DNA from: Lewinellaceae bacterium
Lineage (GTDB): Bacteria; Bacteroidota; Bacteroidia; Chitinophagales; Saprospiraceae
Reading direction: 5' to 3'
DNA length: 40,625 nt
Assembly: GCA_947476195.1 (NCBI GenBank)
Contig: CANJPT010000032.1
Coordinates: 1 to 40,625, forward strand
The notes below the pieces were generated by a model, which saw only the letters and a list, made by a program, of their open reading frames with translations, was not told the DNA's origin and searched no databases. Positions within the stretch are counted from its first letter, which is position 1, and each line of letters starts with the position of its first letter. Made by a program: the position numbers and the translations under genes. Positions 10,581 to 13,180 of the stretch are shown here, piece by piece.

Positions 10581-11192
10581 ATGGTTCTTCTGGCAGCAGG
10601 TTTTATCCTTAGTTTATTCGGTTCGATCCCGCCCGGCCTCATCAGTTTAACAGTGGCCCAGACTTCTATTGCCCGTGGTTGGACTGCGGCTATCGCTCTC
10701 GCAATGGGCGCTGCTTTAGCAGAATTTTTCCAGGCCTGGGCGGCTGTACTGCTCACCGATTGGTTTTTGAGTCACCAGGGAGCGGAACGTGGATTCCATT
10801 GGGCAGCAGTGCCGGTGTTTTTTACGCTTGGGTTTTACCTCGTCTTTTTTGCAAAACCGCCACTCCCACCTGGTCAAATGACCCAGGCTACCTTGCGGGG
10901 ACAATTTTTAAAAGGCCTGGTGGTCAGCTTTTTTAATCTTTTAGCTGTGCCCTATTGGTTCGTGTATTGCGGGTGGTTGCGGATGGAAGGTTGGTGGCAG
11001 GAAGGGCTTTTGCCGACCCTGGTGTTCTCCCTTGGCGTCTCCCTGGGCACCATGTTCGCGTTGGGTTTGTACGCCTGGCTGGGGCAGTTGGTACTGCGCC
11101 GTTCTAACGAGGTTGCTCGATATGCGAATTGGGTCATTGGAGCGATCTTCCTTGGCTTGGGCTTAAAGACTTTGATCGGATTGATCTTTTAA
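10581..11192 (+). CDS. LysE/RhtB-type transporter
   Basis: 203 aa with about six hydrophobic segments and the N-terminal pattern GSIPPGLISLTVAQTSIARGW (about residues 14-34), which matches the PGP-containing first loop of LysE-type exporters that move amino acids or other small solutes out of the cytoplasm. The predicted polar middle (FFAKPPLPPGQ...) fits the family's central loop. Length matches the family (about 200 aa). It is read divergently from the T9SS type-B gene; the start codon is the first ATG in the frame and has no obvious ribosome site. The cobalamin riboswitch begins about 20 bp after its stop. Substrate cannot be assigned. Confidence 0.82.
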   Translation: MVLLAAGFILSLFGSIPPGLISLTVAQTSIARGWTAAIALAMGAALAEFFQAWAAVLLTDWFLSHQGAERGFHWAAVPVFFTLGFYLVFFAKPPLPPGQMTQATLRGQFLKGLVVSFFNLLAVPYWFVYCGWLRMEGWWQEGLLPTLVFSLGVSLGTMFALGLYAWLGQLVLRRSNEVARYANWVIGAIFLGLGLKTLIGLIF

Positions 11193-11211
11193 GGTTCCTA
11201 CCTTCGCCCCG

Positions 11212-11425
11212 GATTTTGGTTTTCCGACGTATGGTCGGGATTAAAGGGAACCCGGTGAGAATCCGGGGCAGTACCCGCTGCTGTAAGTTTCAGATCTTAA
11301 AATAGCCAATGCTCGTACGAAGAGCCATTACTTATTTAGGATCAAGGTGTTGAACAATTTTGCCACTGTTCCAATGGAATGGGAAGGCGTTCTCCGCTAA
11401 AACGAGCCAGAAGACCTGCCATCAT
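11212..11425 (+). ncRNA. Cobalamin (B12) riboswitch
   Basis: The conserved core reads AAAGGGAACCCGGTGAG (from about 11243), AATCCGGGGCAGTACCCGCT (about 11260) and CTGTAAG (about 11281). The B12 box GCCAGAAGACCTGCC lies at about 11406-11420. This is the classic order for the Rfam cobalamin aptamer, with a variable P-arm insert between (11287-11380). It precedes the beta-propeller lipoprotein gene at 11581 and lies 20 bp after the LysE-type gene. A short stem TAAGGT/ACCTTA (11483-11488 with 11496-11501) lies in the expression-platform region. I see no clear intrinsic terminator, so control of translation or an atypical attenuator is more likely. Ligand-bound form should lower expression. Confidence 0.96.
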
Positions 11426-11580
11426 CCATGAATTCAACCGGGCTTCGGGTAGAAAGTCCAGGACATTTGGTTATTTTCCAGATAAGGTCGTCACAACCTT
11501 ACAGGGTACGGTTTTTTGAAGCCGGATCCAGTCCTTCCTATCCGTTTTCCTTTCATTATCAACGTTTTAGTTTTTAAAAA

Positions 11581-12627
11581 ATGAAAGTCAAACTACTTTT
11601 CCTTTCGCTTATTTCAACCGTATTCTTCATCGCTTGTGGGGAAAAAGAACCGTGTTGTACGCTTCCAACGGCGGACTACTCAAAAGGTGTTTTCGTGGTA
11701 AACGAAGGCCCATTTGGCGGCACGGGTACCATCAGTTGGTATAATCCCGATACTGGTGAAACGCAGGATTCCCTGTTTGAAAAAGCCAATAAAGGCGCGG
11801 TCTTAGGACAGTTTGTGCAGTCGCTTACGTTTTTTAAGGGCAAAGGCTATATTGTTGTCAACGGCGCCAATAGGGTAGTGGTCGTAGATGCTACAACCTT
11901 CCAATACCTGGATACCATTGGTGGTCTGGCATTGCCACGGTACTTTTTGCCCTTAAATAATAATACCGCCTATATAAGCCAATGGGGGCTGGATGGCTTA
12001 ACCGGTAGCGTGGTGAAAGTAGACCTTGGTACCAATAAGGTAATAAAAACCATCCCTGCCGGTTCAGGTCCGGAAAAAATGGTTCTGGCTACGGATCGGG
12101 TATATGTGGCCAATTCTGGTGGTTATGGTAAAGATTCGACCCTGACAGAAATAATGCTTGGGGATGATTCCGCCCAGATATTGCCTATAGTTGCCGGAAT
12201 AAACCCGGCTACGCTTGTTTTAAATACCTATGAAACGCCCGCAAAACTGGTTTGTCTTTGCAAGGGTTATTTTGGGGATCCGACACCCGCAGGCAGGCTC
12301 GACTTTCTGCTCCCGGGTACGCCAGGCGTCGAAGCACCCGCGTATTCGGATGATCTGATGTTGGATGGGGATAGCGGAGACCTGTTTTTTATTGGCGACG
12401 GCAAGGTTTACAAGTTTTCGGGCACTGGACCTGCCGCATCACGCTCTATCCTTTTCAGCCAAGCTGCCTATGGATTGGGCTATGATGCTGACCAGAACTT
12501 GCTGTATTGTGCAGATGCAAAGGGTTTCACCGGACTTGGTGAGGTTGTGATCTACCAAACGGATGGCACTAAACTTGGCTCCTTTCGTACCGGTATCGCC
12601 CCGGGCGAGGTTATAATCGTGAAATAA
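11581..12627 (+). CDS. B12-regulated surface lipoprotein with beta-propeller (DUF5074/YncE-like, BtuG-like)
   Basis: 348 aa. Lipoprotein signal with lipobox FFIAC (Cys19), followed at once by acidic residues (CGEKEP), the kind of export signal that sends Bacteroidota lipoproteins to the cell surface. The rest is blades of a beta-propeller: GVFVVNEGPFGG near 37, LGQFVQSLTFFKGKGYIVVN near 75, VVVVDATTFQYLD, SVVKVDLGTNKVIKTIPAG, DRVYVANSG and GLGYDADQNLLY. The NEG..G and PRY motifs fit the DUF5074/YncE-like group that includes Bacteroides BtuG, a lipoprotein that captures B12 with very high affinity at the cell surface and hands it to the TonB receptor BtuB. The cobalamin riboswitch directly upstream supports a B12 role. 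No btuB is adjacent, so it would have to work with a distant receptor. The BtuG assignment is inference from domain plus riboswitch. Confidence 0.8.
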   Translation: MKVKLLFLSLISTVFFIACGEKEPCCTLPTADYSKGVFVVNEGPFGGTGTISWYNPDTGETQDSLFEKANKGAVLGQFVQSLTFFKGKGYIVVNGANRVVVVDATTFQYLDTIGGLALPRYFLPLNNNTAYISQWGLDGLTGSVVKVDLGTNKVIKTIPAGSGPEKMVLATDRVYVANSGGYGKDSTLTEIMLGDDSAQILPIVAGINPATLVLNTYETPAKLVCLCKGYFGDPTPAGRLDFLLPGTPGVEAPAYSDDLMLDGDSGDLFFIGDGKVYKFSGTGPAASRSILFSQAAYGLGYDADQNLLYCADAKGFTGLGEVVIYQTDGTKLGSFRTGIAPGEVIIVK

Positions 12628-12652: not shown

Positions 12653-13180
12653 ATGAAATACTTTGTAGCGCCCCTTGCATTTTTCGTTTTTTTCGCTTGT
12701 TCCCAGGCTCCCACGGAATTTGGGGGCAGGCAGAAAAATCAAAAACCGCTGGTATTCCAGTTTAGCAATAAAATAGCAACCATGGACCCCAAAGATCCTA
12801 CTAACTGGTGCAATGCTAAATATGGGCAAGCCGTGCTTATTAGCGCGGATCCTAAAAATTTCCATCGCCGACTGTTTGCGCTGGGTGATTTGCCAATCAG
12901 AGTGATCATAGATACCGGCCATCAGACTGCTGCTTTCATGATGTACAAACAGGGCAATCAGATTGAGATTTCCACAAGCGATAACCTTCCCATGTGCCTT
13001 TCCAACAAAGCAGGTTTCCAGCTATCTTCAGATGGGCTTTCTTTCCGTTACAATAACAAACGGGACATCAGTTTTGATGTTTACATGCAAGAATTGACTA
13101 ATGGGACACAAATCGCGCTTGATCTTCCGCCAAGTGGAAGCCATGGAATGACAGTGATTCCGTGTAAAACTTGCAAGTAG
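12653..13180 (+). CDS. Small lipoprotein of unknown function
   Basis: 175 aa. A short lipoprotein signal ends in lipobox FFAC (Cys16), followed by a mature region with Lys-rich start and a mixed beta-type domain. Four or five further Cys residues occur, including a C-terminal pair in PCKTCK. I do not recognise the family. It lies 25 bp after the riboswitch-controlled gene but carries its own -7 element immediately before the ATG, so it may be expressed separately from the B12 response or in addition to it. A role linked to the BtuG-like protein is possible only by position. Confidence 0.7.
   Translation: MKYFVAPLAFFVFFACSQAPTEFGGRQKNQKPLVFQFSNKIATMDPKDPTNWCNAKYGQAVLISADPKNFHRRLFALGDLPIRVIIDTGHQTAAFMMYKQGNQIEISTSDNLPMCLSNKAGFQLSSDGLSFRYNNKRDISFDVYMQELTNGTQIALDLPPSGSHGMTVIPCKTCK

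Follow-up and report, generated by a model that had tools for sequence, protein, structure and literature searches.

BtuG has so far been studied as the lid of a co-expressed BtuB in gut Bacteroides, and the locus described here raises the question of how such a lid is used when its gene stands behind a cobalamin riboswitch with no btuB beside it. In gut Bacteroidetes, btuG is present in 106 of 109 btuB operons, and the operon annotation of six further btuG homologs is affected by incomplete assemblies (excerpt of PMC6143338); BtuG2 is also required for its co-expressed BtuB (excerpt of PMC12751083). The DNA analysed here, referred to as the window, is a 40.6 kb stretch that makes up the entire contig C32 of a draft assembly (G000; 4.76 Mb, 224 contigs, 97.14% complete). 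A preliminary description of it had proposed a stand-alone corrinoid scavenger or a lipoprotein with a distinct receptor partner. Our data point to a different answer, in which the window probably encodes the lid of a BtuBG system whose channel is encoded on another contig.

The riboswitch and the BtuG-type protein

The RF00174 model matches positions 11200-11437 of the forward strand from end to end (model positions 1-189), with a cmscan score of 90.1 bits and an E-value of 3.6e-21 against a gathering score of 31.5 bits, which places the start of the aptamer 12 bases 5' of position 11212, where it had been set before. This is a canonical cobalamin riboswitch aptamer, for which cobalamin binding and an effect on expression are predicted. 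A whole-genome search of the assembly, in which all 143 candidates were scored, returned this RF00174 match and no other. A gene for a LysE-type translocator (10581-11192, forward strand) stops 8 bases before the aptamer, and the btuG promoter is therefore probably located inside or upstream of it.

The btuG-type gene (11581-12627, forward strand) begins 143 bases after the aptamer end on the same contig and encodes a DUF5074 beta-propeller of 348 aa that is a predicted surface lipoprotein. Its N-terminus looks signal-like by eye and includes a lipobox-type cysteine, C19 (codon at 11635-11637, forward strand), which is invariant in a 17-sequence alignment (A3). DUF5074 is matched with 59.7 bits, above the Pfam cut-off of 27.2, and the best nine PDB sequence matches have E-values from 7.5e-19 to 3.7e-17; seven of these are BtuG-type or B12-bound entries, and the other two (8baz and 8puj) have generic names only. 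An AlphaFold model built with 17 sequences (pLDDT 88.8, pTM 0.86) retrieved BtuG-type chains at all of Foldseek ranks 1-13, with E-values between 6.1e-20 and 9.3e-18. Compared with BtuG2 (8bmz), the model gave a Z-score of 39.6 and an rmsd of 1.9 over 306 residues; outside the BtuG group, the top fold, 1l0q, reached a Z of 31.3, and the related fold of the B12-binding propeller BtuK1 (9s6c) was a weaker match than BtuG2, at 28.5.

The residues named for the BtuG2 pocket are W194, W272, Y316, Y335 and Y239, and the net charge of BtuG2 is given as -18 (excerpt of PMC10404256); that of the mature window protein is -10. In our own reading of the alignment, all five pocket places are aromatic in the window protein, with W272 corresponding to Y255, Y316 to Y297, Y335 to F316 and Y239 to F231 (or Y230), while for W194 a tyrosine, Y182, is found in the same loop at a place that is approximate because of an alignment gap. 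The aromatics differ in identity from those of BtuG2, with the same letter at Y316 only, and the motifs NEG, QS, VVN and PRY are retained. By sequence, predicted fold and pocket positions, the product of 11581-12627 is a BtuG-type protein that is ordinary in kind. From an identity to BtuG2 of only about 25%, and because beta-propellers are versatile folds, one could argue for a protein of BtuG fold that has taken up another ligand and lost corrinoid binding. However, a cobalamin riboswitch is found directly 5' of the gene in 17 of the 18 rows of its clade (see below) and the pocket aromatics and motifs are kept, so that such a change of ligand appears very improbable.

The contig contains no match to BtuB, either with a BtuB profile made for the family (E 1e-10) or with TIGR01779, and since the window is the complete contig, the absence of btuB in view holds for all of C32. 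For this reason we do not file the layout as a canonical btuB-btuG operon, although adjacency to btuB is usual, not defining, for a BtuG protein. The preliminary description was borne out in its account of the aptamer, of a BtuG-like DUF5074 protein and of the missing neighbour, and the comparison of a predicted structure with BtuG that it had proposed came out in its favour. It had also placed the host near the Saprospiria, which fits the closest BtuG relatives, from Saprospirales, Saprospiraceae and Chitinophagales MAGs.

A BtuB-type receptor on another contig

We ran the BtuB profile, made from 22 riboswitch-linked receptors of relatives, on 46 genomes of the family. In the genome of the window it has one match at E 1e-40 (C95:7076-8908, 389.8 bits), within a longest ORF of 649 aa (C95:6968-8917, or L045:1969-3918). 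Across the family, one TonB receptor above 290 bits was found in 38 of the 46 genomes and two in none. The C95 receptor has four PDB matches at E 0.001 or better, all of them BtuB entries (best E 2.5e-45), and it exceeds the cut-offs for both the TonB plug (PF07715, 32.3 bits) and the barrel (PF00593, 59.2 bits). It aligns with BtuB2 through extracellular loop 8 (EL8), where motif mapping places a Phe at the position of the B12-contacting Tyr538 of BtuB3, as is also the case in BtuB2. In the EL8 numbering, Leu531 and Tyr538 of BtuB3 fit our own count and Ser524 falls on an Ile; because Ser524 of the deleted tip is mismatched in this way with respect to the excerpt of PMC10404256, EL8 was mapped by motif and by the statement on the BtuB2 Phe. 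We also tried TIGR01779 (TonB-B12), which has 27 matches in this genome, none over the cut-off of 599.7 bits and the best at 88.1, and the family profiles were used instead. The cut-off is exceeded in one of the three control genomes with matches. By its sequence, the C95 gene is a BtuB-type TonB-dependent receptor, one not filed under TIGR01779.

The presence of this receptor in the same genome means that the window BtuG is probably not a stand-alone protein, contrary to what had been proposed, and the BtuB on C95, encoded in trans, is its likely partner in what would be a BtuB-BtuG complex. A search of the genome for a btuB under the same riboswitch, also suggested earlier, was successful as regards the gene and failed as regards the switch, since the region of the C95 btuB has no RF00174 match even up to an E-value of 5. 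Upstream of btuB are a malate dehydrogenase gene (mdh) and a gene for an AhpC/TSA-type redoxin, whose stop is overlapped by the longest reading of btuB; this position behind mdh and redoxin suggests housekeeping transcription.

Regarding the B12 economy of the host, its genome has four ORFs with B12-binding domains (726, 1322, 585 and 1165 aa), of which the 726-aa and 1322-aa ORFs fit methylmalonyl-CoA mutase and MetH, respectively, by size. CobB/CbiA was above cut-off in none of 22 genomes, a set that covers this one and 15 further genomes of the clade, and five had weak sub-cut-off matches; the absence of this one gene is compatible with corrinoid scavenging but no proof of it. A search for FecCD, a BtuC-type permease, gave no match in the genome of the window or in two further genomes (G186 and G111), and weak matches over the cut-off, from 32.7 to 40.4 bits, in three solo relatives, as defined below (G015, G147 and G172).

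Within the family, BtuG is present in 15 of the 46 genomes. A BtuB-profile match accompanies it in all 15, but also occurs in 29 of the 31 genomes that lack BtuG, so that the co-occurrence of the two proteins is weak evidence of partnership. Similarly, the EL8 aromatic is found in eight of nine BtuBs linked to DUF4465, and this residue therefore does not single out the partners of BtuG. DUF4465 itself occurs in 13 of the 46 genomes, and a search of the genome of the window gave no match to it. The riboswitch-btuB-DUF4465 (BtuH-type) operons are like the present system in taxonomic family, riboswitch class and the possession of a BtuB-type TonB receptor, whereas they differ from it in having the riboswitch before btuB and DUF4465. 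In four further genomes of the family (G065, G074, G163 and G168; loci L059, L050, L071 and L054), the TonB receptor linked to the riboswitch is a distant one, placed on a long branch apart from other BtuBs. The EL8 aromatic is absent from all four receptors, in a part of the tree with an uncertain alignment, and neither BtuG nor DUF4465 was found in these genomes. In two others (G055, locus L074, and G160, locus L086), the first ORF 3' of the cobalamin riboswitch starts with MQTQNLGYPRIG, which we take to be of the metE type.

Recurrence of separate btuG and btuB genes

A peptide-pattern scan of 84,980 species genomes yielded 270 relatives, the best 80 of which were kept. Joined by the window and by 12 genomes of the family, they gave 93 labelled loci, comprising 29 with a riboswitch and btuG but no adjacent btuB (hereafter solo), 53 with a BtuB-like ORF in the roughly 2.5 kb upstream, two of the order btuB-riboswitch-btuG, one of neither type and eight that were not assignable. 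The order in which the switch is between receptor and lid (L186 and L117, the latter in G147) is a possible intermediate of the split. On a BtuG tree, made by a quick method and with four long rows flagged, the window belongs to a clade of 18 rows (SH-aLRT 99*), 17 of them solo and one (L152) not assignable. Solo and between-type loci are separated from operon-type loci by six changes on this tree, which indicates several gains or reversions of the split.

BtuB was searched for in 32 genomes, 27 of them with solo loci. Besides the genome of the window, 25 of these 27 have a BtuB, always on a contig different from that of the riboswitch and btuG; it was not found in the genomes of L161 and L178, the latter a member of the window clade. 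Because the assemblies are fragmented, an unlinked btuB here means one on another contig. In the window clade, 17 of 18 genomes have a BtuB, and these proteins form one clade (100*) on a BtuB tree that was likewise made by a quick method and has long-branch warnings elsewhere; in membership, this BtuB clade and the BtuG clade agree. The EL8 aromatic is found at the Tyr538 place in 16 of the 17 BtuBs. Redoxin adjoins btuB in 15 of the 17 genomes, the exceptions being L152 and L145 (the flank of L145 is missing), and mdh was seen near it in 13. The riboswitch-btuG units of the clade, for their part, are in at least five different neighbourhoods, one of them on a 710 kb contig (L143). Most simply, btuB would have kept its position and the riboswitch-btuG unit would have moved.

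These observations bear on the idea of a stand-alone scavenger, in which the lipoprotein would bind B12 without BtuB or together with a different receptor. The contig without btuB speaks for it, as does the finding that BtuG2 partitions to the supernatant in a btuB mutant of B. thetaiotaomicron and, according to a section heading of the same paper, can function extracellularly (excerpt of PMC6143338). Nevertheless, a BtuB-type receptor in the genome of the window and in nearly all other solo genomes searched, as well as the shared membership of the BtuB and BtuG clades, make this idea quite unlikely. A search for a conserved btuG neighbour that might be another partner found none clade-wide within about 4.5 kb, and neighbours in common within sub-clades only, such as the one that contains the window, L142, L143 and L178. 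In the window, the ORF that follows btuG (12653-13180, forward strand) encodes a lipoprotein-like protein of 175 aa with no Pfam match, and this ORF, a 154-aa ORF and a UbiA gene are kept 3' of btuG in L142, L143 and L178.

The two genus-mates of the window genome have other arrangements: one (G186) has a riboswitch-btuB-DUF4465 locus without BtuG, and in the other (G194) neither a cobalamin riboswitch nor BtuG was found, nor any BtuB match at E 1e-40. Genes for B12 uptake thus differ within one genus. As neither genus-mate has the window layout, the clade unites BtuG genes and does not correspond to the genus as grouped, and replacement or transfer is possible. The disagreement with the genus-mates, together with a draft assembly in 224 pieces, might also be taken as a sign that a normal riboswitch-btuB-btuG operon was split by an assembly or binning artefact. 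We find this scarcely conceivable, given that the riboswitch and btuG are so close together within one contig and that the layout recurs in 16 other clade members, in several neighbourhoods that include the long contig of L143.

A more serious alternative, which we nonetheless consider unlikely, is that the two genes are separate but regulated jointly, with B12 repressing btuB by way of a transcription factor or of a leader that escaped recognition. Operon 4 of B. thetaiotaomicron is B12-responsive with no identified riboswitch (excerpt of PMC12751083), and in three of the 25 btuB-positive solo genomes (L182, L200 and L214; G220, G223 and G225) btuB has a riboswitch of its own in addition to the one at btuG on another contig. 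Against joint regulation, the btuB region of the window genome has no trace of RF00174 at a very permissive threshold, and btuB follows mdh and redoxin in most of the clade, with the overlap of the redoxin stop in the window genome. The flanks of btuB (up to 1.5 kb) are free of a riboswitch in the remaining btuB-positive solo genomes, with the 5' flank cut off in L145 and L180. Genome-wide, two RF00174 matches were found in each of L182, L200 and L214 and one in each of the other 24 solo genomes, among up to 56 candidates per genome, a scheme that weak ones may escape; in the genome of the non-assignable L152, no cobalamin riboswitch was found among up to 56 candidates scored.

Taken together, the reading we favour, and hold to be probable, is that the window BtuG works with a trans-encoded BtuB whose gene follows mdh and redoxin on a different contig and has no detectable riboswitch, while the sole detected riboswitch is on btuG alone. 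In comparison with BtuB2G2 and BtuB3G3 of B. thetaiotaomicron (excerpts of PMC10404256 and PMC6143338), the BtuG fold and pocket, the predicted lipoprotein, the BtuB-type receptor with an EL8 aromatic and the cobalamin riboswitch at btuG are alike, whereas in the present genome no riboswitch was detected at btuB, which is on a different contig. The arrangement is unusual and recurrent and, judging from sequences and models, is probably a variant of the BtuBG system in which the switch would throttle the lid and not the channel. In titles and opening lines of abstracts of the open-access literature, we found no conserved btuG/btuB split, no riboswitch at btuG alone and no cobalamin riboswitch in Saprospiria; PMC11287211 and PMC3766115, in their excerpted parts, have no bearing on the split.

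A candidate expression platform at the btuG start

Cobalamin riboswitches have a P13-L13 element, and a kissing loop between L5 and L13 reports the binding state (excerpt of PMC9600662). Like the platforms described there, the window has a full-length aptamer with a P13-like hairpin right behind it (11440-11459, forward strand, read from the sequence), whose loop is CGGGTAGA; each of the clade's 17 solo leaders has a GGCTTCGGG-type element. What sets the window clade apart is a candidate arm that could mask the start codon. This arm (11537-11557, forward strand, with a core at 11544-11557) can, by computation, pair either with the P13-like element or with the btuG start-codon region (11580-11593, forward strand), 12 of whose 14 positions pair with the core. 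Across the clade's 17 solo genes its sequence is TTTGCCTTTCATT or a variant, and it ends 12 to 23 bases 5' of the start. A simple scan of the forward strand from the aptamer to the gene called no terminator.

Pairing of the arm with the start region fills 204 of 238 cells in the 17 solo leaders, as opposed to 145 and 103 when the two are slid by one base. The median duplex energy is -12.2 kcal/mol for the arm and the start and -14.2 kcal/mol for P13 and the arm. In none of the 17 leaders did more than 13 of 200 single-letter arm shuffles attain the former energy, while the latter was attained by at least 18 of 200 in nine of them (93 in L150), so that the pairing of P13 with the arm is the less clear of the two. 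Codon 3, a valine, is GTC in 15 of 15 clade genes, compared with 72 of 484 valine codons elsewhere in the same genes, a bias that constraint on the RNA would produce, with shared descent weakening the count. Since the pairs between arm and start are nearly invariant, covariation adds little.

A scan of whole leaders of 17 clade members for complementarity to the start region gave z-scores from -5.8 to -1.0. The observed value was reached by at most two of 200 shuffles in six leaders, by three in the window and by more than 10 in seven, among them L143, L145, L146, L150, L157 and L156, for which a wrong start codon was used. By contrast, 42 other riboswitch leaders had no general start-region signal (median z -0.02; reached by at most two of 200 shuffles in two of the 42), although their gene starts were picked mechanically and some may be wrong, in which case a signal could be missed. 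Covariation between L5 and L13 was also tried and set aside: in the 45 of 110 riboswitches that were parsed, the mean longest run was 3.87, versus 3.77 with loops swapped between species. The loop pair of the window, UACCCG/CGGGUA with six pairs, is merely consistent with an L5-L13 kissing loop.

On this basis, we suggest that BtuG would act as a surface propeller lipoprotein that captures corrinoids and passes them to BtuB. When B12 is scarce, the btuG start codon would be free and the lid would be made. When B12 is ample, the aptamer would hold the P13 element and release the switch arm, which would then mask the start codon and stop translation, leaving BtuB channels with few lids. What we infer here is that B12 is bound, that BtuB and BtuG are partners, that btuB is expressed steadily, and in which direction and at which level the switch acts. 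More tentatively, it is possible that a housekeeping BtuB is kept constant, that the start-masking translational riboswitch adds BtuG only in B12 hunger so that the number of lids sets the supply, and that BtuG made in excess of BtuB can be shed as an extracellular catcher. If this were true, the BtuG lid would be a separately dosed module.

With the genes for lid and barrel apart and the B12 switch at the lid, the function of BtuB without its lid becomes testable, and the same clade allows two further tests, of whether uptake is set by the number of lids and of whether surplus BtuG acts extracellularly. B12 uptake systems of this kind are overlooked by genome searches that look for a riboswitch with an adjacent btuB.

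In two btuG leaders, L153 and L154, the stretch that separates the arm from the P13-like element contains an extended and almost perfect hairpin with GAGTCCTGAGTC-like repeats, and these leaders have folding energies of about -145 to -149 kcal/mol.
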